Position numbers and translations under genes: made by a program. A stretch of DNA of 64,000 nt from Meghimatium bilineatum (taxonomy: Eukaryota > Mollusca > Gastropoda > Stylommatophora > Philomycidae): positions 54,073,685 to 54,137,684 of the forward strand of contig CM067322.1 of NCBI GenBank assembly GCA_034231615.1, in the 5' to 3' direction. Within the stretch, counting starts at the first letter, position 1. Each line of letters begins with the position of its first letter. Shown piece by piece: positions 17,467-59,900 of the stretch. The notes beneath the pieces are model-generated. The model ran no database searches. It was not told the DNA's origin and saw only the letters and a program-made list of their open reading frames with translations.

Positions 17467-19095
17467 TGATAGTCTTCTTTGCTCCCCTTTCGGGTTTCAA
17501 CAATAGACGGGAACTCACAACCCTTTACCAATCTGCCAGAGGTTTTATTAATTGTATATTAATGTTATTTAAGAGATAACACTACCTTACCTACACAGTG
17601 ATATCTCATGTATCAAGCTCTGAAAATAACTCAAAAAAACTACGGATAAATTTGTGAGCTCACTATCAGACTTGAAATTAATTAAATCAGTTTTAAAAAA
17701 AAAATTTGTTGTGAAATGGTTAAATATTCCTTGAAATAATAAATCAAGGAGTCAAAGCTATATCATTTTTCGGTATCTTTAAAATCTCTTTCAAACGTAT
17801 TGCCCCACCCCTATATTACTCTTTACTCTCATATCACCACGGGACGCCTTTATCCGCTCACCACTCCGTTGGGGCGGTACCACCTACGCTGAGAATGACT
17901 GATCTAAGCGTTTGACAACATCTGTGTTACGCGCACTTGGTAATGCGGGTTGGATAATTTCCGAAGGATGTTTCACCCTACTCGGAGGTTGCAGGAAGGT
18001 AACTTTGAAATAAGGAAATCCCGTTAACAGCAAAGCCCGCATCAGTAAGCAAGACGTTACCCGATGACGTGATAAATCGGCCTTGTATTTCCTATCCTCA
18101 ATCTAACTCATCTCTTTGTTTCTCCTACTTCAGCAACCTTCCACCTCCATACAGCTATGAGCTGGCGTGTGGTAACCTACTATATTGTGTAGTAATCAGA
18201 TTAAGTTTCGTGAGTTATTTTACAAAATATGTATCTATACATTTCTTAGTAACTACTATCATACTCAATGAAGACAAGTGTCCGTGACTTTGTGATGATA
18301 AATTATGCATAGATATCTTAGTACCCGGGTGATTTCGCCAGGCGTAAGATTGCATAGTTCTCACGTCGCTCTACATGTCAAAGAACAATGGTAATCTCCG
18401 CGTCTGTGAACGGAATGAAGGTGTGCACGCCATGCGTTATCTGACAATTCAAGCGGAAACGATTTCTATATTCACCACACAATTTCTGAGTGAATGACCG
18501 CCCCTATAAGTGCTCACGACAATATATTTCTCATCAGACATGCATAGCTCACGCACATTAAGCATACACATCTTGCCAGTAATAGTTCTCGCCGACGTCT
18601 ATAATCCTTCACCATAGAACAAGTGCAGTCTTTACTTTAAAATGTGTGCATTCATTACTGTAATTAAATTTATTTTTGTTATTATTTTAGAATTTTGATT
18701 ACTTTGTACCATTTCATCCATTAATCTATATGTCACACGTAAGACAGGATTTGGCTTCATACAGACTTAAAGTGCCACATTTTCTGACATTTAATTTGAG
18801 CAGGAATCCATATAAAGTGTATAAAACGTAAGCTGCTTGTCGAACAACTGTTGCAAGGTTTAGCTTTAATTGTCGTTTTCAGTTATCAGTTGAACAAGAA
18901 TTATGATGAAATTCCACACGACTAAATAAGTTTTATGCAATATTGCCTTTACAAAATGTGATGTATTTTCTTCTACGCTCGCTGTCATATTTCTTCAAAA
19001 TTGAAGACATGCGTTGTGTCTAAGTTTGTAGTCTAACAAATACATTTGCGTCTTTTAGCCGGACACATCTAACGTAGAGTTTTATTAACTTTGTT
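17467..19095. other. 1.6-kb stretch without recognised features
   Basis: No gene, RNA or family repeat identified. GC is higher at about 17800-18070 and 18330-18600, without an extended reading frame. The CGGACACATCTAACGTAGAG word just before 19081 resembles a minus GAA fragment. The region may hold regulatory or single-copy sequence, but nothing shows that directly. Confidence 0.35.
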
Positions 19096-19378
19096 CGCCC
19101 ATCTGTTGCCGGGGCCCGAAAGAGAAGCAAAGAATAGCAACACTGTTTACCTTCCACGCATGTCGTAAAAGGCGACTATGGAGGTTATGGGATGGAGTTG
19201 GCTGTCCCATCCCATATAGGGTCAGTGACCCAAGGCCATACTGAAGTCGGATGTGTCAGGACGAAAGGCGCAGATATCGCAGCAATGCTGTAAACCATGA
19301 CACACCGCAATTCCGTTCTCCGGACTACATCCTGCTAATCTGCAGGAGTTTGAGAACGAACGCAGAAGAAGGAGAAGA
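19096..19378 (+). mobile_element. GAA-A retroposon, full-length
   Basis: This starts CGCCCATCTGTTGCCGGGG and ends CGCAGAAGAAGGAGAAG. Landmark blocks in order are CCCGAAAGAGAAGCAAAG, ACTGTTTACCTTCCACGC, GTCGTAAAAGGCGACTA, GGGATGGAGTTGGCTG, CCCATATAGGGTCAGTGACC, AGTCGGATGTGTCAGG, GCAGATATCGCAGCAATG, CTCCGGACTACATCCTGC and TAATCTGCAGGAGTTTG. The flanks TTAACTTTGTT (19085-19095) and TGAACTTAGTT (19379-19389) form an imperfect target-site duplication. No ORF or clear Pol III boxes are seen. CCCATCCCATATAGGG-type palindromes near the middle could fold. Confidence 0.85.
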
Positions 19379-19436
19379 TGAACTTAGTTCTGTTGTGAGA
19401 TTGTGTATCAGAGCCCTTTAAAGCGGACTTATTTAG

Positions 19437-19612: not shown

Positions 19613-19727
19613 TCTTTGTTGAACAGTTGATGAAAAACAAAACGCATTTTATGAAAAAAAAAAGACTTACAGATATATGCATCAACAATACCAGATTGCC
19701 GTCTAACGTGATCCCAGTCTTTCTCAT

Positions 19728-20205
19728 GCTGACTCAAAATTCTGAGTGAACTCACACACATGGTCTCATATTGACATACAATCCTGAGATAACTCACCCA
19801 CATTCTCATGCTGACTCACAATCCTGAGATAACTCACACACATTTTCTCATACTGACCTACAATCCTGAGATAATTCACATACACTTTCTCATGCTGACT
19901 CACTCATGAGATAACTCTCACACACTTTCTTCTCATGCTGACTCCCTCCTGAGATAACTCTCACACACTTTCTCATGCTGACTCACAATCCTGAGATAAC
20001 TCAAACACATTTTCTCCTGTTCACAATCCTAAGAGAACTCACACATACTTTCTCATACTGACGAATTCTGAGAGAACTCACACATACGTTCTCATCCTGA
20101 CTCCCAATCCTGAGATAATTCACACACACTTTTTCATGCTGACTCACAATCCTGAGATAACTCACACACACTTTCTCACGCTGGCCCACAATCCTGATAA
20201 AACTC
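19728..20205. repeat. 42-bp minisatellite, about 11 units, diverged
   Basis: The unit is about TGCTGACTCACAATCCTGAG plus ATAACTCACACACACTTTCTCA. Several units are shortened. It follows the 44-bp array, and both contain GAATTCTGA/CTGAG-like words. Confidence 0.85.
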
Positions 20206-20301
20206 ACTACGGACGTGACTAAAACTGCATTGTTATTTTCTGTATGTAAACATATGTCGATGTTTTCCATTTCTTATTTTGTACCGTAGAGTTTAACATT
20301 C

Positions 20302-30277: not shown

Positions 30278-30559
30278 CGCCCGTGTGCTGCGGGGGCCCG
30301 AAAGGGGAGCAAAGAATAGCAGCACTGTTTACCTTCCACGCATGTCGCAAGAGGCGAATAAGGAGGTTATGGAATGGAGTTGGCTGTCCCATCCCATATA
30401 GAATCAGTGACCCAAAGCCATGCTGAATTCGGATGTGTCCGGCCGAAACGCGCAGATATCGCAGCAAAGCTGTAAACCATGTCACAACGCATTCCGTTCT
30501 TCGAACGACATACTGCTAGTCTACAGAAGTTTAAGAACGAACGCAGAAGAAGAAGAAGA
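30278..30559 (+). mobile_element. GAA-A retroposon, full-length with TSD
   Basis: It starts CGCCCGTGTGCTGCGGGGG and ends CGCAGAAGAAGAAGAAG. The flanks GTGATAGCTTG (30267-30277) and GTGACAGCTTG (30561-30571) match at 10 of 11 bases, giving a target-site duplication. All family blocks are present in order. Confidence 0.9.
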
Positions 30560-30671
30560 TGTGACAGCTTGTTAGCTTGTTGTATGAGATATTTATACTT
30601 GTGACCTGCTGTAGATATCGTTACAAACATCCACCATTCAGCGGCAGTGGTAAAAACACTGTACTTATTAG

Positions 30672-31031: not shown

Positions 31032-31250
31032 GTGGGGATCTCCCTGGCGTAGTGGTTAAGCTGTTCGCACTGTGTTCAAGAGGTCACGGGTTTGAATCCG
31101 GCCCGTGTCGTCTTGTTTATAAGGTGGATTTTTTTTTTCGGAGATCCCTGTGAATTATCACTTGAAGCTACGGAGTTTCGTGCTATGAGTGGTACTCTCG
31201 GCAGGCGGCTTGCCGCTTCGTGTAGAGTGACGGAGTACAGTGAAGTCAAT
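31032..31250 (+). mobile_element. SINE1, tRNA-derived, best copy
   Basis: It begins GGGGATCTCCCTGGCGTAGT. The A-box region is GGCGTAGTGGTTAAGC, and the B-box GGGTTTGAATCC lies about 45 bases downstream, the spacing of tRNA genes. The non-tRNA body follows: TTTTTTTTTCGGAGATCCC, ACGGAGTTTCGTGCTATG and GGCGGCTTGCCGCTTCG. The internal boxes would direct RNA polymerase III transcription in a live SINE. The first-half resemblance to a tRNA is clear, but an amino-acid identity cannot be assigned. Confidence 0.85.
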
Positions 31251-32095: not shown

Positions 32096-32640
32096 AGTAT
32101 ATATACACTTCCATATATACTAGGAGAAACTCAGTATACACTTCCACATATACTAGGAGAAACTCAGTATACACTTCCACATACACTAAGAGAAACTCAG
32201 GATACACTTCCACATACACTAAGAGAAACTCAGGATACACTTCCACATACACTAAGAGAAACTCAGGATACACTTCCACATACACTAGGAGAGACGCAGT
32301 ATACACTTCCACATACACTAAGAGAAACTCAGGATACACTTCCACATACACTAGGAGAGACGCAGTATACACTTCCACATACACTAGGAGAGACGCAGTA
32401 TACACTTCCACATATACTAGGAGAGACTTAGCAACCATCAGTATATATACACTTCAACATATACTGTGAGAGACTTATTATATACTTCCACATATACTGG
32501 GACTCAGTTTATACTTCCACATACACTGGAAGAAACTCAGTATATACTTCCACATATTTTGGGAGAGACAAATTAACCATTAGTATATATGCACTTCAAC
32601 ATATACTGTGAGAAACTTATTATATAATTCCACATGTCAT
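32096..32640. repeat. 33-bp minisatellite, left flank of big array
   Basis: The unit is about AGTATACACTTCCACATACA plus CTAGGAGAGACGC. About ten regular units run to 32425, followed by irregular transitional units that gain TTAGCAACCATC (about 32430 and 32575). The plus frame of 141 codons (TSTYTRRNSVY) and the minus frame are array by-products of an 11-residue period. Confidence 0.9.
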
Positions 32641-35600
32641 AGGAGAGATTCTGCAACCATCAGTATACACTTTCACATATACCGGGAGAGACATAGCAAC
32701 AATCAGTATACACTTTCACAAATACCGGGAGAGACATAGCAACAATCAGTATACACTTTCACATATACCGGGAGAGACATAGCAACAATCAGTAAGTATA
32801 CACTTTCACATATACCGGGAGAGACATAGCAACAATCAGTATACACTTTCACATATATCGGGAGAGACATAGCAACAATCAGTAAGTATATACTTTCACA
32901 TATACCGGGAGAGACATAGCAACAAACAGTATACACTTTCACATATACCGAGAGAGACATAGCAACAATCAGTATACACTTTCACATATAACGGGAGAGA
33001 CATAGCAACAATTAGTAAGTATACACTTTCACATATACCGGGAGAGACATAGCAACAATCAGTATACACTTTCACATATACCGTGAGAGACAAAGCAACA
33101 ATCAGTAAGTATACACTTTCACATATACCGGGAGAGACATAGCAACAATCAGTAAGTATACACTTTCACATATACCGGGAGAGACAAAGCAACAATCAGT
33201 AAGTATACACTTTCACATATACCGGGAGAGACATAGCAACAATCAGTAAGTATACACTTTCACATTTACCGGGAGAGACATAGCAACAATCAGTATACAC
33301 TTTCACATATACCGGGAGAGACATAGCAACAATCAGTATACACTTTCACATATACCGGGAGAGACATAGCAACAATCAGTAAGTATACACTTTCACATAT
33401 ACCGGGAGAGACATAGCAACAATCAGTATACACTTTCACATATACCGGGAGAGACATAGCAACAATCAGTATACACTTTCACATATACCGGGAGAGACAT
33501 AACAACAATTAGTAAGTATACACTTTCACATATACCGGGAGAGACATAGCAACAATCAGTATACACTTTCACATATACCGGGAGAGACATAGCAACAATC
33601 AGTAAGTATACACTTTCACATATACCGGGAGAGACATAGCAACAATCAGTATACACTTTCACATATACCGGGAGAGACATAGCAACAATCAGTAAGTATA
33701 CACTTTCACATATACCGGGAGAGACATAGCAACAAACAGTATACACTTTCACATATACCGAGAGAGACATGGCAACAATCAGTATACACTTTCACATATA
33801 CCGGGAGAGACATAACAACAATTAGTAAGTATACACTTTCACATATACCGGGAGAGACATAGCAACAATCAGTAAGTATACACTTTCACATATACCGGGA
33901 GAGACATAGCAACAATCAGTAAGTATACACTTTCACATATACCGGGAGAGACATAGCAACAATCAGTAAGTATACACTTTCACATATACCGGGAGAGACA
34001 TAGCAACAAACAGTATACACTTTCACATATACCGAGAGAGACATAGCAACAATCAGTATACACTTTCACATATACCGGGAGAGACATAGCAACAATTAGT
34101 AAGTATACACTTTCACATATACCGGGAGAGACATCGCAACAATCAGTAAGTATACACTTTCACATATACCGGGAGAGACATAGCAACAAACAGTATACAC
34201 TTTCACATATACCGAGAGAGACATAGCAACAATCAGTATACACTTTCACATATACCGGGAGAGACATAGCAACAATTAGTAAGTATACACTTTCACATAT
34301 ACCGGGAGAGACATAGCAACAATCAGTAAGTATACACTTTCACATATACCGGGAGAGACATAGCAACAATCAGTAAGTATACACTTTCACATATACCGGG
34401 AGAGACATAGCAACAATCAGTATACACTTTCACATATACCGGGAGAGAATAACAATAATCAGTAAGTATACACTTTCACATATACCGGGAGAGACATAGC
34501 AACAATCAGTAAGTATACACTTTCACATATACCGGGAGAGACATAGCAACAATCAGTAAGTATACACTTTCACATTTACCGGGAGAGACATAGCAACAAT
34601 CAGTATACACTTTCACATATACCGGGAGAGACATAGCAACAATCATTAAGTATACACTTTCACATATACCGGGAGAGACATAGCAACAATCAGTAAGTAT
34701 ACACTTTCACATATACCGGGAGAGACATAGCAACAATCAGTAAGTAAACACTTTCACATATAACGGGAGAGATAGCAACAATCAGTAAGTATACACTTTC
34801 ACTATATACCGGGAAAGACATAGCAACAATCAGTATACACTTTCACATATACCGGGAGAGACATAGCAACAATCAGTAAGTATACACTTTCTCATATACC
34901 GGGAGAGACATAGCAACAATCAGAAAGTATACACTTTCACATATACCGGGAGAGACATAGCAACAATCAGTAAGTATACACTTTCACATATACCGGGAGA
35001 GACATAGCAACAATCAGTAAGTATACACTTTCACATATACCGGGAGAGACATAGCAACAATCAGTAAGTATACACTTTCACATTTACCGGGAGAGACATA
35101 GCAACAATCAGTATACACTTTCACATATACCGGGAGAGACATAGCAATAATCAGTAAGTATACACTTTCACATACACCGGGAGAGACATAGCAACAATCA
35201 GTATACACTTTCACATATACCGGGAGAGACATAGCAACAATCAGTATACACTTTCACATATACCGGGAGAGACATAGCAACAATCAGTAAGTATACACTT
35301 TCACATATACCGGGAGAGACATAGCAACAATCAGTATACACTTTCACATATACCGGGAGAGACATAGCAACAATCAGTATACACTTTCACATATACCGGG
35401 AGAGACATAACAACAATTAGTAAGTATACACTTTCACATATACCGGGAGAGACATAGCAACAATCAGTATACACTTTCACATATACCGGGAGAGACATAG
35501 CAACAATCAGTAAGTATACACTTTCACATATACCGGGAGAGACATAGCAACAATCAGTATACACTTTCACATATACCGGGAGAGACATAGCAACAATCAG

Positions 35601-36850
35601 TAAGTATACACTTTCACATATACCGGGAGAGACATAGCAACAAACAGTATACACTTTCACATATACCGAGAGAGACATAGCAACAATCAGTATACACTTT
35701 CACATATACCGGGAGAGACATAGCAACAATTAGTAAGTATACACTTTCACATATACCGGGAGAGACATAGCAACAATCAGTAAGTATACACTTTCACATA
35801 TACCGGGAGAGACATAGCAACAATCAGTAAGTATACACTTTCACATATACCGGGAGAGACATAGCAACAATCAGTAAGTATACACTTTCACATATACCGG
35901 GAGAGACATAGCAACAAACAGTATACACTTTCACATATACCGAGAGAGACATAGCAACAATCAGTATACACTTTCACATATACCGGGAGAGACATAGCAA
36001 CAATTAGTAAGTATACACTTTCACATATACCGGGAGAGACATAGCAACAATCAGTAAGTATACACTTTCACATATACCGGGAGAGACATAGCAACAAACA
36101 GTATACACTTTCGCATATACCGGGAGAGACATAGCAACAATCAGTATACACTTTCACATATACCGGGAGAGACATAGCAACAATCAGTAAGTATACACTT
36201 TCACATATACCGGGAGAGACATAGCAACAATCAGTAAGTATACACTTTCACATATACTGGGAGAGACATAGCAACAATCAGTAAGTAAACACTTTCACAT
36301 ATAACGGGAGAGACATAGCAACAATCAGTAAGTATATACTTTCACTATATACCGGGAGAGACATAGCAACAATCAGTATACACTTTCACATATACCGGGA
36401 GAGACATAGCAACAATCAGTAAGTATACACTTTCACATATACCGGGAGAGACATAGCAACAATCAGTAAGTATACACTTTCACTATATACCGGGAGAGAC
36501 ATAGCAACAATCAGTAAGTATACACTTTCACTATATACCGGGAGAGACATAGCAACAATCAGTAAGTATACACTTTCACTATATACCGGGAGAGACATAG
36601 CAACAATCAGTAAGTATACACTTTCACTATATACCGGGAGAGACATCGCAACAATCAGTAAGTATACACTTTCACTATATACCGGGAGAGACATAGCAAC
36701 AATCAGTAAGTATACACTTTCACTATATACCGGGAGAGACATAGCAACAATCAGTATACACTTTCACATATACCGGGAGAGACATAGCAACAATCAGTAT
36801 ACACTTTCACATATACCGGGAGAGACATAGCAACAATCAGTAAGTATACA
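32641..36850. repeat. 43/47/48-bp minisatellite, roughly 90 units
   Basis: The core unit is AGTATACACTTTCACATATA, CCGGGAGAGACATAGCAACA and ATC (43 bases). A 47-base version repeats AGTA (CAGTAAGTATACAC), and a 48-base version adds T (TTTCACTATATACCGG), homogeneous at about 36470-36745. Variants such as ACAAACAGTATACAC plus ACCGAGAGAGAC mark higher-order blocks. The segment at about 33300-34320 recurs at about 35208-36228 (offset 1908). Minus ORFs (SLPVYVKVYTDCCYVSPGIC) are by-products. There are too many near-identical units for me to count exactly. Confidence 0.95.
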
Positions 36851-36975
36851 CTTACCCAGAGAAACACTGGGAGAAAATAAATATAAACTTCCACATATGC
36901 TGAGAGAGACTCACAAGTCGCTTCCACATATACTGAGAGAGACTCACAAGTCGCTTCGACATAACATATACTGGG
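36851..36975. repeat. 33-bp units, right flank of big array
   Basis: Diverged units CTTCCACATATACTGAGAGA plus GACTCACAAGTCG occur at about 36886-36960. The short 33-bp form therefore flanks the longer units on both sides. Confidence 0.8.
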
Positions 36976-37432: not shown

Positions 37433-37667
37433 AGTAAGTAAAGTAACCCATATCATTTATTAATGCCGTAGGGGTGTGAGATGTTAGCGATCTCACATTT
37501 CACAGGCTCTGCAAATGAGGGCGGTAGCCATCTCTTCTCCCTCGCAGTCTTTATTTCCGGATTAATCCGGTACCCATTTAAGGCTGGGTCGACCTGGGAG
37601 CCGTTGCGATCTGAAAACATTTCCGCCTCAATTGGGAAATGAACCCAGGACCACTAATATGCGAAGC
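37433..37667 (-). mobile_element. SINE2 copy with 14-bp target duplication
   Basis: ATATTGAATGTGTA occurs immediately on both sides (37419-37432 and 37668-37681), a perfect duplication. On minus the element starts at GCTTCGCATATTAGTGG, with CCTGGGTTCATTTCCC as B-box, and runs through CAAATGGGTACCGGATTAAT to GGTTACTTTACTTAC. Relative to 41357-41612 it lacks the A-box end, so it is 5'-truncated by a few tens of bases. Confidence 0.9.
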
Positions 37668-39135: not shown

Positions 39136-39336
39136 TTTTAATGTGTCCAAAATATGTTATTCAGTTGAGCATTATTTTCTTTAATAATTCTTTCTTCATA
39201 TTAAGTGTTATTATAATCTTTTTTTTTCTTTCCGTGTTCTTCTCCCTATAATTCTATATATCTACATCTCCATGACATTAATTCTGTCCTCTAATTGCTT
39301 GTCTATTGTCTAAGTTTCTGAGTCATATATTAATAT

Positions 39337-39618
39337 CACCCGAGTGTTCAAGGGTCCCGAAAGGGGAGCAAAGAATAGCAACAGTGTTTACCTTCCACGC
39401 ATGTCGTAAAAGGCGACTAAGGAGGTTATGGGATGGAGTTGGCTGCCCCATCCCATATAGGGTCAGTGACCCAAAGCCATGCTGAAGTCGGATGTGTCAG
39501 GCGGATAGGCGCAGATATCGCATCAATGATGTAAACCAGGACACAACGCATTCCGTTCTCCGGACTACATCCTGCTAATCTGCAGGAGTTTGAGAACGAA
39601 CGCAGAATAAGAAGAAGA
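39337..39618 (+). mobile_element. GAA-A retroposon, full-length with TSD
   Basis: It runs from CACCCGAGTGTTCAAGGG to CGCAGAATAAGAAGAAG. ATATATTAATAT flanks it at 39325-39336 and again at 39621-39632, a perfect 12-base duplication. The body is close to the consensus; one tail GAA is mutated to TAA. Confidence 0.9.
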
Positions 39619-39647
39619 ATATATATTAATATAGAATAGATATAACA

Positions 39648-41356: not shown

Positions 41357-41612
41357 AAATTTAACCCATAGCATTTGTTAATAACGTAGGGGTAGAAGAT
41401 GTTAGCGATTTCATATTTCAGCTTTTCTGCTATATGAGGGCCGTCGTCATCTCCTCTCCCTCGCTGTCTTTACTTCCCGGATTAATCCGGTGTCTAATTA
41501 AAGCTGGGTCTATCTTGGAGCCAGTTTGATCCGGTAAACATTTCCGCCTCAACTGGGGAATGAACACAGGGCCACTAATCTGCGAGGCCAGTGCGCTAAG
41601 CAGTGAAACTAG
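41357..41612 (-). mobile_element. SINE2, tRNA-derived, longest copy
   Basis: On minus it starts near CACTGCTTAGCGCACTGGCC (A-box at 41587-41600), followed by CGCAGATTAGTGGCCC and CCTGTGTTCATTCCCC (B-box at 41556-41572), like a tRNA first half. The body contains GGCGGAAATGTTTACCGG, CACCGGATTAATCCGGG and GCTAACATCTTCTACCCC, and ends at CTATGGGTTAAATTT. The GGATTAATCC palindrome is shared with 37433-37667. Confidence 0.85.
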
Positions 41613-41617
41613 TTTAT

Positions 41618-41728
41618 GTTCCACTCTAAGAAACCTGCTAGTCAGATTATATGTGTATGTAAATGTATGTTCCACTGTAAGAAACCTGCTAGTCAGATTA
41701 TATGTGTATGTATATGTATATTCCACTG
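41618..41728. repeat. 51-bp tandem repeat, about 2 units
   Basis: Units start at 41618, 41669 and (partial) 41720: GTTCCACTCTAAGAAACCTG, CTAGTCAGATTATATGTGTA and TGTAAATGTAT. Confidence 0.85.
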
Positions 41729-44459: not shown

Positions 44460-44644
44460 GTTACTACATATATACTCCGTCTCTCTACCAATATAGTATC
44501 ATTCATAGCACGTAACTCCGTCACTTTATACGGTACTGTACACATGGATCTCCAAAACACATTCACTTTATACACAAGAATTCGTTAGCGGGATTCTAAC
44601 CCTTCACCTCTTGAGTAGAAAACGAACGGCTTAACCACTACAGT
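44460..44644 (-). mobile_element. SINE1 body, interrupted by GAA-A
   Basis: Minus reading: AGTGGTTAAGCCGTTCG (A-box), CTCAAGAGGTGAAGGG, GGGTTAGAATCCCGC (B-box), TTTTGGAGATCCATGTG, ACGGAGTTACGTGCTATG. The 5' few bases of the SINE continue at 44938 after the inserted GAA-A copy. Confidence 0.8.
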
Positions 44645-57436: not shown

Positions 57437-58028
57437 AAATCCCCCCTCCCCCAAATAATTAAAAATTACTATTAATCATGTCTGTATTTATGTATTAAAT
57501 GCCATCTCCTCATATTGAACAAGCTGACCTATAACCTCATGCTCACTCCTCTAATACACTGTAAAAACTCAAAAGTTCGTCTTGTCTTATTTAATCTATT
57601 TCTCAGCTTCTAATCAAATATTTTATTGACGTAACGTTTCCTATGTTTCATTACAAAAACCATAAATCACCCGTGACATAACATTCTTGCTCTGTTGTCA
57701 CTAGTAATTTATTTATCAATAATTTAACCATTTATTTTCCATTTTTAATCGTAAATTTAGAGAATTGATCCCGTTCAGAGCAAACACATCCCAATGGAAT
57801 CATAATTTGGAAGTAAGCAAATCTAGCGTCATCCAACCTGGATGTCACTTTATGCATTATTTCTGAGCAGGCAATCGTGAGCACACTTAGAACAGAGGAA
57901 TACCTGCATGTGCTGTGAAACCGACTTAGGTAATCATGACGGGACCAAATGACATTGAAGTCACGCTAGTAAATGAAGCTTTCATTTAATCAGAACATCA
58001 AACGGGCTGTGTTAATGGCATTAAAGAA
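57437..58028. other. spacer, nothing recognised
   Basis: AT-rich, no gene or repeat identified. Confidence 0.4.
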
Positions 58029-58160
58029 ATAGGAGAGGGTTACATGGACATAGTGATGGGCAGAACGTGTGAGGATAATGACATCACAATAGGAGAGGGC
58101 TACATGGATACATCACTGTGATGAGCAAAACGTGTGAGGATAATGGCATCACAATAAGTG
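58029..58160. repeat. about 60-bp tandem duplication
   Basis: AGGAGAGGGTTACATGGACA and AGGAGAGGGCTACATGGATA begin two copies with GCAGAACGTGTGAGGATAAT / GCAAAACGTGTGAGGATAAT. A partial third (AAGTGAGTGGGCGGAACG) follows. Confidence 0.8.
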
Positions 58161-58227
58161 AGTGGGCGGAACGGGTACATTAGATGAGAGATATTATCTA
58201 AGATTTGTGCTAAATTATAACACAGCT

Positions 58228-58990
58228 GGGGATCGCGGTAGCTCAGTGCATGGTGTAATACATCTGGGGATCGCGGCAGCTCAGTGCATGGTGTAATGCA
58301 TCTGGGGATCGCGGCAACTCAGTGCACGGTGTAATGCATCTGGGGATCAAGGTAGCTCAGTGCATGGTGTAATGCATTTGAGGATCAAGGTAGCTCAGTG
58401 CATGATGTAATGCATCTGGAGATCAAGGTAGCTCAGTGCATGGTGTAATGCATTTGAGGATCAAGGTAGCTCAGTGCATGATGTAATGCATCTGGGGATC
58501 AAGGTAGCTCAGTGCACGGTGTAATGCATTTGGGGATCAAGGTAGCTCAGTGCATGGAGTAATGCATCTGGGGATCGCGGCAACTCAGTGCATGGTGTAA
58601 TGCATTTGGGGATCAAGGTAGCTCAGTGCATGATGTAATGCATCTGGGGATCAAGGTAGCTCAGTGCATGGTGTAATGCATCTGGGGATCAAGGTAGCTC
58701 AGTGCATGGTGTAATGCATCTGGGGATCGCGGCAACTCAGTGCATGGTGTAATGCATTTGGGGATCAAGGTAGCTCAGTGCATGGTGTAATGCATCTGGG
58801 GATCAAGGTAGCTCAGTGCATGGTGTAATGCATCTGGGGATCATGGTAGCTATATGTATGGTGTACTATAGCTGGGGATCGCGGCAATTCAGTGGATGGT
58901 GTTCTACAACTGGCGATGGTGGTAGCTCGTTGGTTTGTGTACGACAGTAGGGGATGGCGGCAGATCAGTGAATGATGTACTGGGTTCCCA
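58228..58990 (+). repeat. 38-bp array of tRNA-like A-box heads, ~20 units
   Basis: The unit is GGGGATCAAGGTAGCTCAGT plus GCATGGTGTAATGCATCT, with exact 38-base spacing from 58228. GGTAGCTCAGTGCATGG is very close to a Pol III A-box / tRNA D-arm (TRGCNNAGYNGG). The last units diverge (GGGGATGGCGGCAGATCAGT) and lead into ACTGGGTTCCCAGACCGATG, which resembles an anticodon arm, so the array looks like amplification of the 5' head of a tRNA-derived SINE. No B-box is present in the units. Confidence 0.9.
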
Positions 58991-59315
58991 GACCGATGAT
59001 AGGGGGCTGCAAAATGGGCTCCAAGTTTCATGGGAATGTAAAGACTGCGAACATTATGCTAACCGCTTCATTCTTTGGTACGTAATTGGTTGATGAAAAT
59101 ATATGGGCTTAACACCATATTTTCCAAACGGCTCACAGGCGTAAAAACCAGAATTTAAAAAAAAATATTACAGCACTACAGTTTATTTGGAGAAAAAGGC
59201 GATACTTGGAAAATTGAATACATTTGACTAACTCCATTTAATATAACAATTTAATAACACCTAAAAGAAAGGATGGTGTCAATGAATGGATAAAAACATT
59301 TCCCTTCATAATGCC
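58991..59315. other. spacer between two arrays
   Basis: Contains the trailing sequence GGGGGCTGCAAAATGGGC of the presumed SINE. Otherwise AT-rich and unrecognised. Confidence 0.4.
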
Positions 59316-59900
59316 TTGTCGGCTACGATTATTTGTGTAGCTCTCTCGTCAGCTACATTTATTAGTGTGACACTCTTGTCAGCTACAGTTATTAGTGTGA
59401 CACTCTTGTCAGCTACAGTTATTAATGTGACACTCTTGTCAGCTACAGCTATTAGTGTGACACTCTTATCAGCTACAGTTATTAGTGTGACACTCTTGTC
59501 AGCTACATTTATTAGTGTGACACTCTTGTCAGCTACAGTTATTAGTGTGACACTCTTGTCAGCTACAGTTATTAGTGTGACACTCTTGTCAGCTACAGTT
59601 ATTATTGTGACACTCTTGTCAGCTACAGTTATTAGTGTGACACTCTTGTTAGCTACAGTTATTAGTGTGACACTTGTCAGCTACAGTTATTAGTGTGACA
59701 CTCTTGTCAGCTACAGTTATTAGTGTGACACTGTTGTCAGCTACAGTTATTAGTGTGACACTCTTGTCAGCTACAGTTATTAGTGTGACACTCTTGTCAG
59801 CTACATTTATTAGTGTGAGACTCTTTTCAGCTACATTAATTAGTGTGATACTTGTGTCAGCTACAATATTAGTGTGGCAGTTGTCAGCTAAATTTATTTG
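59316..59900. repeat. 30-bp minisatellite, about 19 units
   Basis: TTGTCAGCTACAGTTATTAG plus TGTGACACTC repeats with a 30-base period and a slip of three bases near 59670. Degenerate units with ATTTATTTGTGTAGCC continue to about 60055. The plus 135-codon frame (SVTLLSATVI) and the minus frame are by-products. Confidence 0.92.

Follow-up and report, generated by a model that had tools for sequence, protein, structure and literature searches.

A 38-bp minisatellite in Meghimatium bilineatum with a probable origin in the 5' head of a dispersed SINE

An array of 38-bp units in the window, by which we mean the whole 64,000-nt stretch of DNA analysed here (54.07-54.14 Mb of contig C25, in a genome of 1.61 Gb and 32 contigs), is homologous in its unit and in its right flank to a SINE family found across the genome, and head arrays with other periods occur at further copies of the same family. 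Very probably the array is a SINE-derived minisatellite that would have formed through insertion of a SINE, tandem duplication of its 5' end, expansion, and loss of the region that holds the B box. The initial annotation of this DNA had proposed that a SINE head was amplified as a minisatellite, and the genome does contain further sites that carry the unit, 16 against none for a reversed control, of which 8 extend into a single-copy element.

The array occupies 58226-58985, at 54.13 Mb of the 105-Mb contig. Cut every 38 bases from 58226, it gives 20 in-register units free of indels; Tandem Repeats Finder reports 58226-58902 with a period of 38 bp, 17.8 copies, 89% matches and 0% indels. The first 16 units (58226-58833, plus strand) are homogeneous, each lying 0-5 bases from the core consensus CTGGGGATCAAGGTAGCTCAGTGCATGGTGTAATGCAT, and by head homology to the genome-wide SINE they consist of SINE nt 1 to ~32 and ~6 nt of filler. 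Units 17-20 (58834-58985, plus strand) have decayed and differ from the core consensus at 9-13 positions. About 20 units of exactly 38 bases had been annotated, which is correct, each with the same 17-mer, which is not: GGTAGCTCAGTGCATGG is present exactly in 8 of the 20, and the remaining units carry variants of it. The A-box-like word of the first unit, TAGCTCAGTGCATGG, stands at 58239-58253 on the plus strand (unit columns 14-28), and its variants follow every 38 bp. The tails of the decayed units read CTATAG, CTACAA and CGACAG, then CT or TA, and ACACAGCT at 58220-58227 on the plus strand, the last bases ahead of the SINE-like GGGG, is similar to them. ACACAG, which precedes the first GGGG, has the same letter as the tail consensus CTACAG in a mere 4 of 6 columns, weakly suggesting that the first unit may have taken in ~6 nt of host 5' flank.

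The parent element was sought genome-wide with the unit-head pattern GGGGATSGCGGYAGCTCAGTG, allowing up to 2 mismatches, which gave 31 matches, 15 in this array and 16 elsewhere; the reversed control gave 0. Eight of the 16 dispersed sites extend as one element (L032, L035, L036, L037, L038, L042, L044, L045), one is itself an array, with units of 34 bp (L033/L087), one matches the SINE over 16 nt only (L040), and six have no SINE match beyond the word (L034, L039, L041, L043, L046, L047). A first consensus was made from 28 copies, namely these eight sites and 20 copies picked by exact head, the latter taken from the 49 distinct loci to which the first 100 matches out of 269 correspond; it has the head TGGTAGCTCAGTTGTTAGTGAACTGGCTTCCT and a B-box-like AAGGTTCAATTTCC. 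In two of the 28 copies, L056 and L064, the match is confined to the first 36 nt. With the 28-mer GGTACCAGATCTTCTGGGAAAGTAAAGG from the SINE body, again at up to 2 mismatches, 639 matches were found in the genome against 0 in the control, and a second consensus, for which 38 body-anchored copies were combined with 14 earlier ones (52 in all), reaches ~280 nt. We take this element, ~280 nt long and spread over many contigs, to be a dispersed SINE. It contains an A-like word, TAGCTCAGTTGTTAG, and a B-like word, GGTTCAATTTCC (GGTTCAATTCC in L044), so that both internal boxes are represented, as judged by eye against standard box motifs. The label 'tRNA-related' that we apply to the putative parent refers to these A- and B-box words; the Rfam tRNA model RF00005, applied to 20 copies out of the 28 behind the first consensus, matched none of them at E<=5.

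At the array locus itself, the last unit runs past the repeat into the same element. Positions 58950-59000 on the plus strand, which include ACTGGGTTCCCAGACCGATGAT at 58979-59000, align with SINE nt 1-51 in local and global alignments, and the local alignment score of 31 was reached by 0 of 2000 shuffles, the best of which scored 26. The final diverged unit had been described as leading into an anticodon-arm-like ACTGGGTTCCCAGACCG, and this sequence aligns to the SINE right after the head, with the 3' half further right: 59012 to ~59153 on the plus strand matches the SINE from ~nt 125 of the first consensus and then passes into an A-rich stretch. The right flank scores 52 against the first consensus (best of 1000 shuffles 35.5) and 118.5 against the longer one (best of 1000 shuffles 82.9). 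Since it had been left out of consensus building, this match is a prediction borne out. SINE nt ~52-124, the B-box word included, are absent at the locus in the alignment. When the last unit and its right flank served as query in a DNA search that skips common words, the self-match alone was returned. Judged from the alignments, the array reads as a single copy of the SINE that underwent tandem multiplication of its head at this site. The window holds two further copies, both on the minus strand: one at 37540-37654 (score 100.4), which is headless, its alignment beginning at ~SINE nt 46, and one at 41443-41606 (score 75.6), which has a 51-bp minisatellite of 2.2 copies at its 5' end (41615-41728), the likeness of whose unit to the SINE was reached by 160 of 300 shuffles.

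The conversion of a SINE head into an array is not confined to this locus. The head word GGTAGCTCAGT occurs twice within 15-45 bases at 255 places in the genome, compared to 7 for the control; as a single word it has 1129 matches compared to 647, so that many single words are chance. Among the matches listed, all 17 loci with tandem GGTAGCTCAGT on C1-C20 were examined, two of them from both ends and the one on C20 from one end only. Nine of the 17 go on 3' into more SINE past the repeated head, with periods of 43 (L068), 44 (L069), 43 (L070), 33 (L071/L072), 34 (L074), 43-46 (L076/L077), 46 (L079) and 38 (L084, where the SINE match extends to nt 65 only), and with two units in L078. Two more, L080 (period 30) and L086 (period 25), have SINE-head units and no more SINE in the flank examined, which is short for L080. 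The other six (L073, L075, L081, L082, L083, L085) have 11-16 nt in common with the SINE and are probably chance arrays. Periods range from 25 to 46 bp across loci and the non-SINE filler varies from locus to locus, which argues for separate origins and not for the spread of one duplicated element. At L072 (C1:110767250-110767750) a single SINE copy bears two arrays, one of 33-bp head units and one of a 37-bp body unit with 6.8 copies and 100% matches in Tandem Repeats Finder.

The history of the array would begin with the insertion of a ~280-nt tRNA-related SINE at the locus. A first tandem duplication at its 5' end would have comprised SINE nt 1 to ~32 together with ~6 nt of the adjoining flank, and replication slippage or unequal exchange may then have expanded it to ~20 units. 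Exchange between units would have kept the middle ones alike while the right-hand units, still joined to the SINE, decayed; the homogeneous core and the decayed right edge of the array fit unequal exchange within it. SINE nt ~52-124, with the B-box word, would also have been lost.

A further-reaching reading holds that tandem duplication starts preferentially in the SINE head, for instance through replication forks stalled by Pol III complexes on the A and B boxes. We regard this as unlikely, and as rather doubtful its wider form, according to which the SINE 5' head is a favoured birthplace of minisatellites and the Pol III promoter half repeatedly triggers duplications that take in flank. If the latter were true, the many SINE copies would be natural replicates of minisatellite birth. 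The genome is rich in minisatellites, with 106 arrays of period 20-60 bp covering 13.9% of bases in a background sample of 264 kb (the window and 20 stretches of 10 kb), and any claim about a single array therefore needs judging against this background. Arrays make up 4 of the 49 exact-head loci in the first 100 of 269 matches, compared to a background seed fraction of ~1% of positions. However, picking by exact head is biased towards arrays, since each offers many units, and copies were hence also picked by body. In the first 40 of the 639 body matches (36 exact, 4 with one mismatch), head arrays were found in two copies, L097 (35 bp, 7.8 copies) and L123 (36 bp, 2.1 copies), the units of which each match the SINE above all 2000 shuffles, and arrays inside the body in none. 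The rate of 2/40 has a 95% interval of 0.6-17%, and background density alone predicts ~1.2 head arrays in 40 copies (60-nt target, overlap of at least 15 nt), with P(>=2) = 0.33. Moreover, body and 3' parts of the SINE have been tandemised too, in L036, L035 and weakly L060 among the 28 copies, and in L072; arrays next to the body-anchored copies L105, L112, L119 and L120 had no SINE match. The comparison of tandem rates between head and body (ACCAGATCTTCT being the SINE body word) comes from small samples only. No preference for the head was found in these data, which are compatible with a mild one.

The unit was also scored, out of 9, on a loose A-box pattern, TRGCNNARYN(1-4)GG. It reaches 9/9, which no other of the 21 consensus units scored for arrays of the window does; the remaining 63240 bases of the window have 7 matches at 6 places. 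The near-perfect A-box head described in the initial annotation is thus present, but its score is equalled by 34 of 2000 sequences made by dinucleotide shuffling of the unit, so that the match on its own is just modestly above chance and proves little. The strong evidence for the putative SINE origin is the genome-wide SINE rather than this word. That the array might be an ordinary minisatellite, with a chance likeness to an A box and a coincidental SINE on its right, nonetheless draws on several observations: the shuffles just mentioned, the abundance of 20-60 bp arrays, the moderate match of the core unit alone to the full SINE consensus, equalled by 68 of 3000 shuffled units, and the six tandem GGTAGCTCAGT loci that resemble chance arrays. 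Against it, the last unit passes unbroken into SINE nt 33-51, followed by a gap and then the SINE 3' half, and the layout of a head array with further SINE is repeated at more than half of the listed tandem loci. The contiguous SINE homology counts against a chance minisatellite, which is disfavoured and in our estimate highly improbable.

No tRNA gene was found at the locus, and Rfam families had no match at 57900-59300 even at E<=10, the tRNA model RF00005 included; a tRNA gene or a known RNA family was accordingly rejected as its identity. As had been annotated, the unit is without a B box, the best match being 5/9. TFIIIC binds mainly via the B box. The A-box columns of the array have a mean entropy of 0.425, compared to 0.386 outside them, and come 31st among the 38 circular windows, where a low rank means conserved; a functional A-box array was rejected because these columns show no extra conservation. 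As an RNA, two units fold with a z of -2.62 relative to shuffles and a single unit with a z of just -0.94. That the array gathers TFIIIC half-sites, serves as a boundary or gives rise to small RNAs, as its ~16 intact or near-intact A-box-like words within 0.6 kb and the two-unit fold somewhat above shuffles might suggest, is scarcely credible given A-box columns conserved no more than others, a B box missing from the unit and its region gone also from the parent SINE copy, and so weak a single-unit fold. In a functional Pol III or TFIIIC element one would expect an intact A and B box, or else constraint on the former, and the array has neither; head arrays moreover arise at about the background rate. 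Of the roles offered in the initial annotation, those of half-sites and boundary, and the functional options in general, are unsupported, and the array is most likely inert, with neither Pol III output nor a TFIIIC or boundary role.

Other repeats lie close by. In all, 17 array units were screened for SINE likeness. Two arrays were considered as further SINE pieces, and for both this is unproven. For the 30-bp array at 59315-59898, which we do not claim, the unit score was reached by 105 of 3000 shuffles, the score of the plus-strand 3' flank by 7 of 200 (borderline) and those of other flanks by 16 to 151 of 200; its unit contains AGCTACAGTTATTAGTG, near the SINE's AGCTCAGTTGTTAGTG. For the array at 19719-20207 the unit score was reached by 32 of 3000 shuffles and the flank scores by 108 to 194 of 200, and its 42-bp unit contains ATGCTGACCACA, likewise found in the SINE 3' part. 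The largest array of the window, at 32102-36973, spans 4.2 kb with a 47-bp unit in ~92 copies, beside related 33-bp arrays. An abundant ~285-nt repeat with a GAA-rich end (19095-19385, 30278-30560, 39334-39619) recurs in many of the twenty sampled 10-kb stretches, and another tRNA-headed repeat, at ~31037-31200 (plus strand), 44495-44641 (minus strand) and 6074-6235 of L019, has good A- and B-box words, TGGCGTAGTGGTTAAGC...GGGTTTGAATCC. The GAA-tailed repeat and the tRNA-headed repeat at 31044 were rejected as parents of the array, as their sequences differ from it and the best unit match had an E of 0.42 in 200 kb of samples. L039 (C9:20.43 Mb) and L041 (C15:49.27 Mb) are alike and have in common a third tRNA-like head, GGGGATCGCGGTAGCCYAGTKGATAGTGAG..., accompanied in L041 by GGTTCGAAACC; they are not copies of the SINE described here.

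For arrays of this kind the initial annotation knew of no standard name, yet SINE-derived satellites (sSats) have already been published. In squamate reptiles, sSats repeat a portion of a SINE in tandem, and their terminal unit is longer and reaches the SINE end; they are present at many loci with different units (PMC10702118). The array here is alike in all of this: its unit is homologous to part of a single-copy SINE, its terminal unit is longer and extends into the SINE end (58950-59000 and 59012-59153, with an internal gap), and several loci are affected (9 of the 17 listed on C1-C20, and 2 of the 40 body-anchored copies). In geckos, a minor variant corresponds to the tRNA portion of the SINE (PMC10702118), which resembles the derivation from a tRNA-like head here. 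In contrast, gecko sSat units average 143 and 151 nt, compared to 25-46 nt here, and squamate loci reach up to 1000 units with a subtelomeric preference, whereas the present array has 20 units (PMC10702118). Among molluscs, PcH-sat of the limpet Patella caerulea resembles the array in containing part of a SINE, Nin-SINE, but it is described as a pericentromeric satellite of ~10% of the limpet genome, with a 179-bp unit that includes the SINE 3' part and lacks A and B boxes (PMC11121367). Hy/Pol III of Hydromantes and Satellite 1/OAX of Xenopus are tandem repeats tied to the tRNA-related region of a SINE-like element (PMC9659126, PMC10702118). The Hy/Pol III unit, at ~200 nt, is unlike the one here, and the SINE origin of both repeats is unproven according to PMC10702118. 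For the present array, in contrast, the parent SINE was identified both at the locus itself and across the genome. The (GGCAGA)n repeat of B1, reported in 1998, arose inside SINE copies, as here, but its unit comes from the B1 interior and not from the 5' head (PMC9659126). Our literature search, which covered open-licence papers, found no publication on this SINE or on head minisatellites of 25-46 bp.

Taken together, the conversion of part of a SINE to a tandem array is a known kind of event, and the individual locus is an ordinary one. What the present data add is a minisatellite tied to its parent SINE at one locus, together with the same conversion, at other periods, at other copies of that SINE. 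Since the parent sequence of each array is known, such loci may be used for studying the breakpoints of first duplications as well as the growth and decay of arrays.
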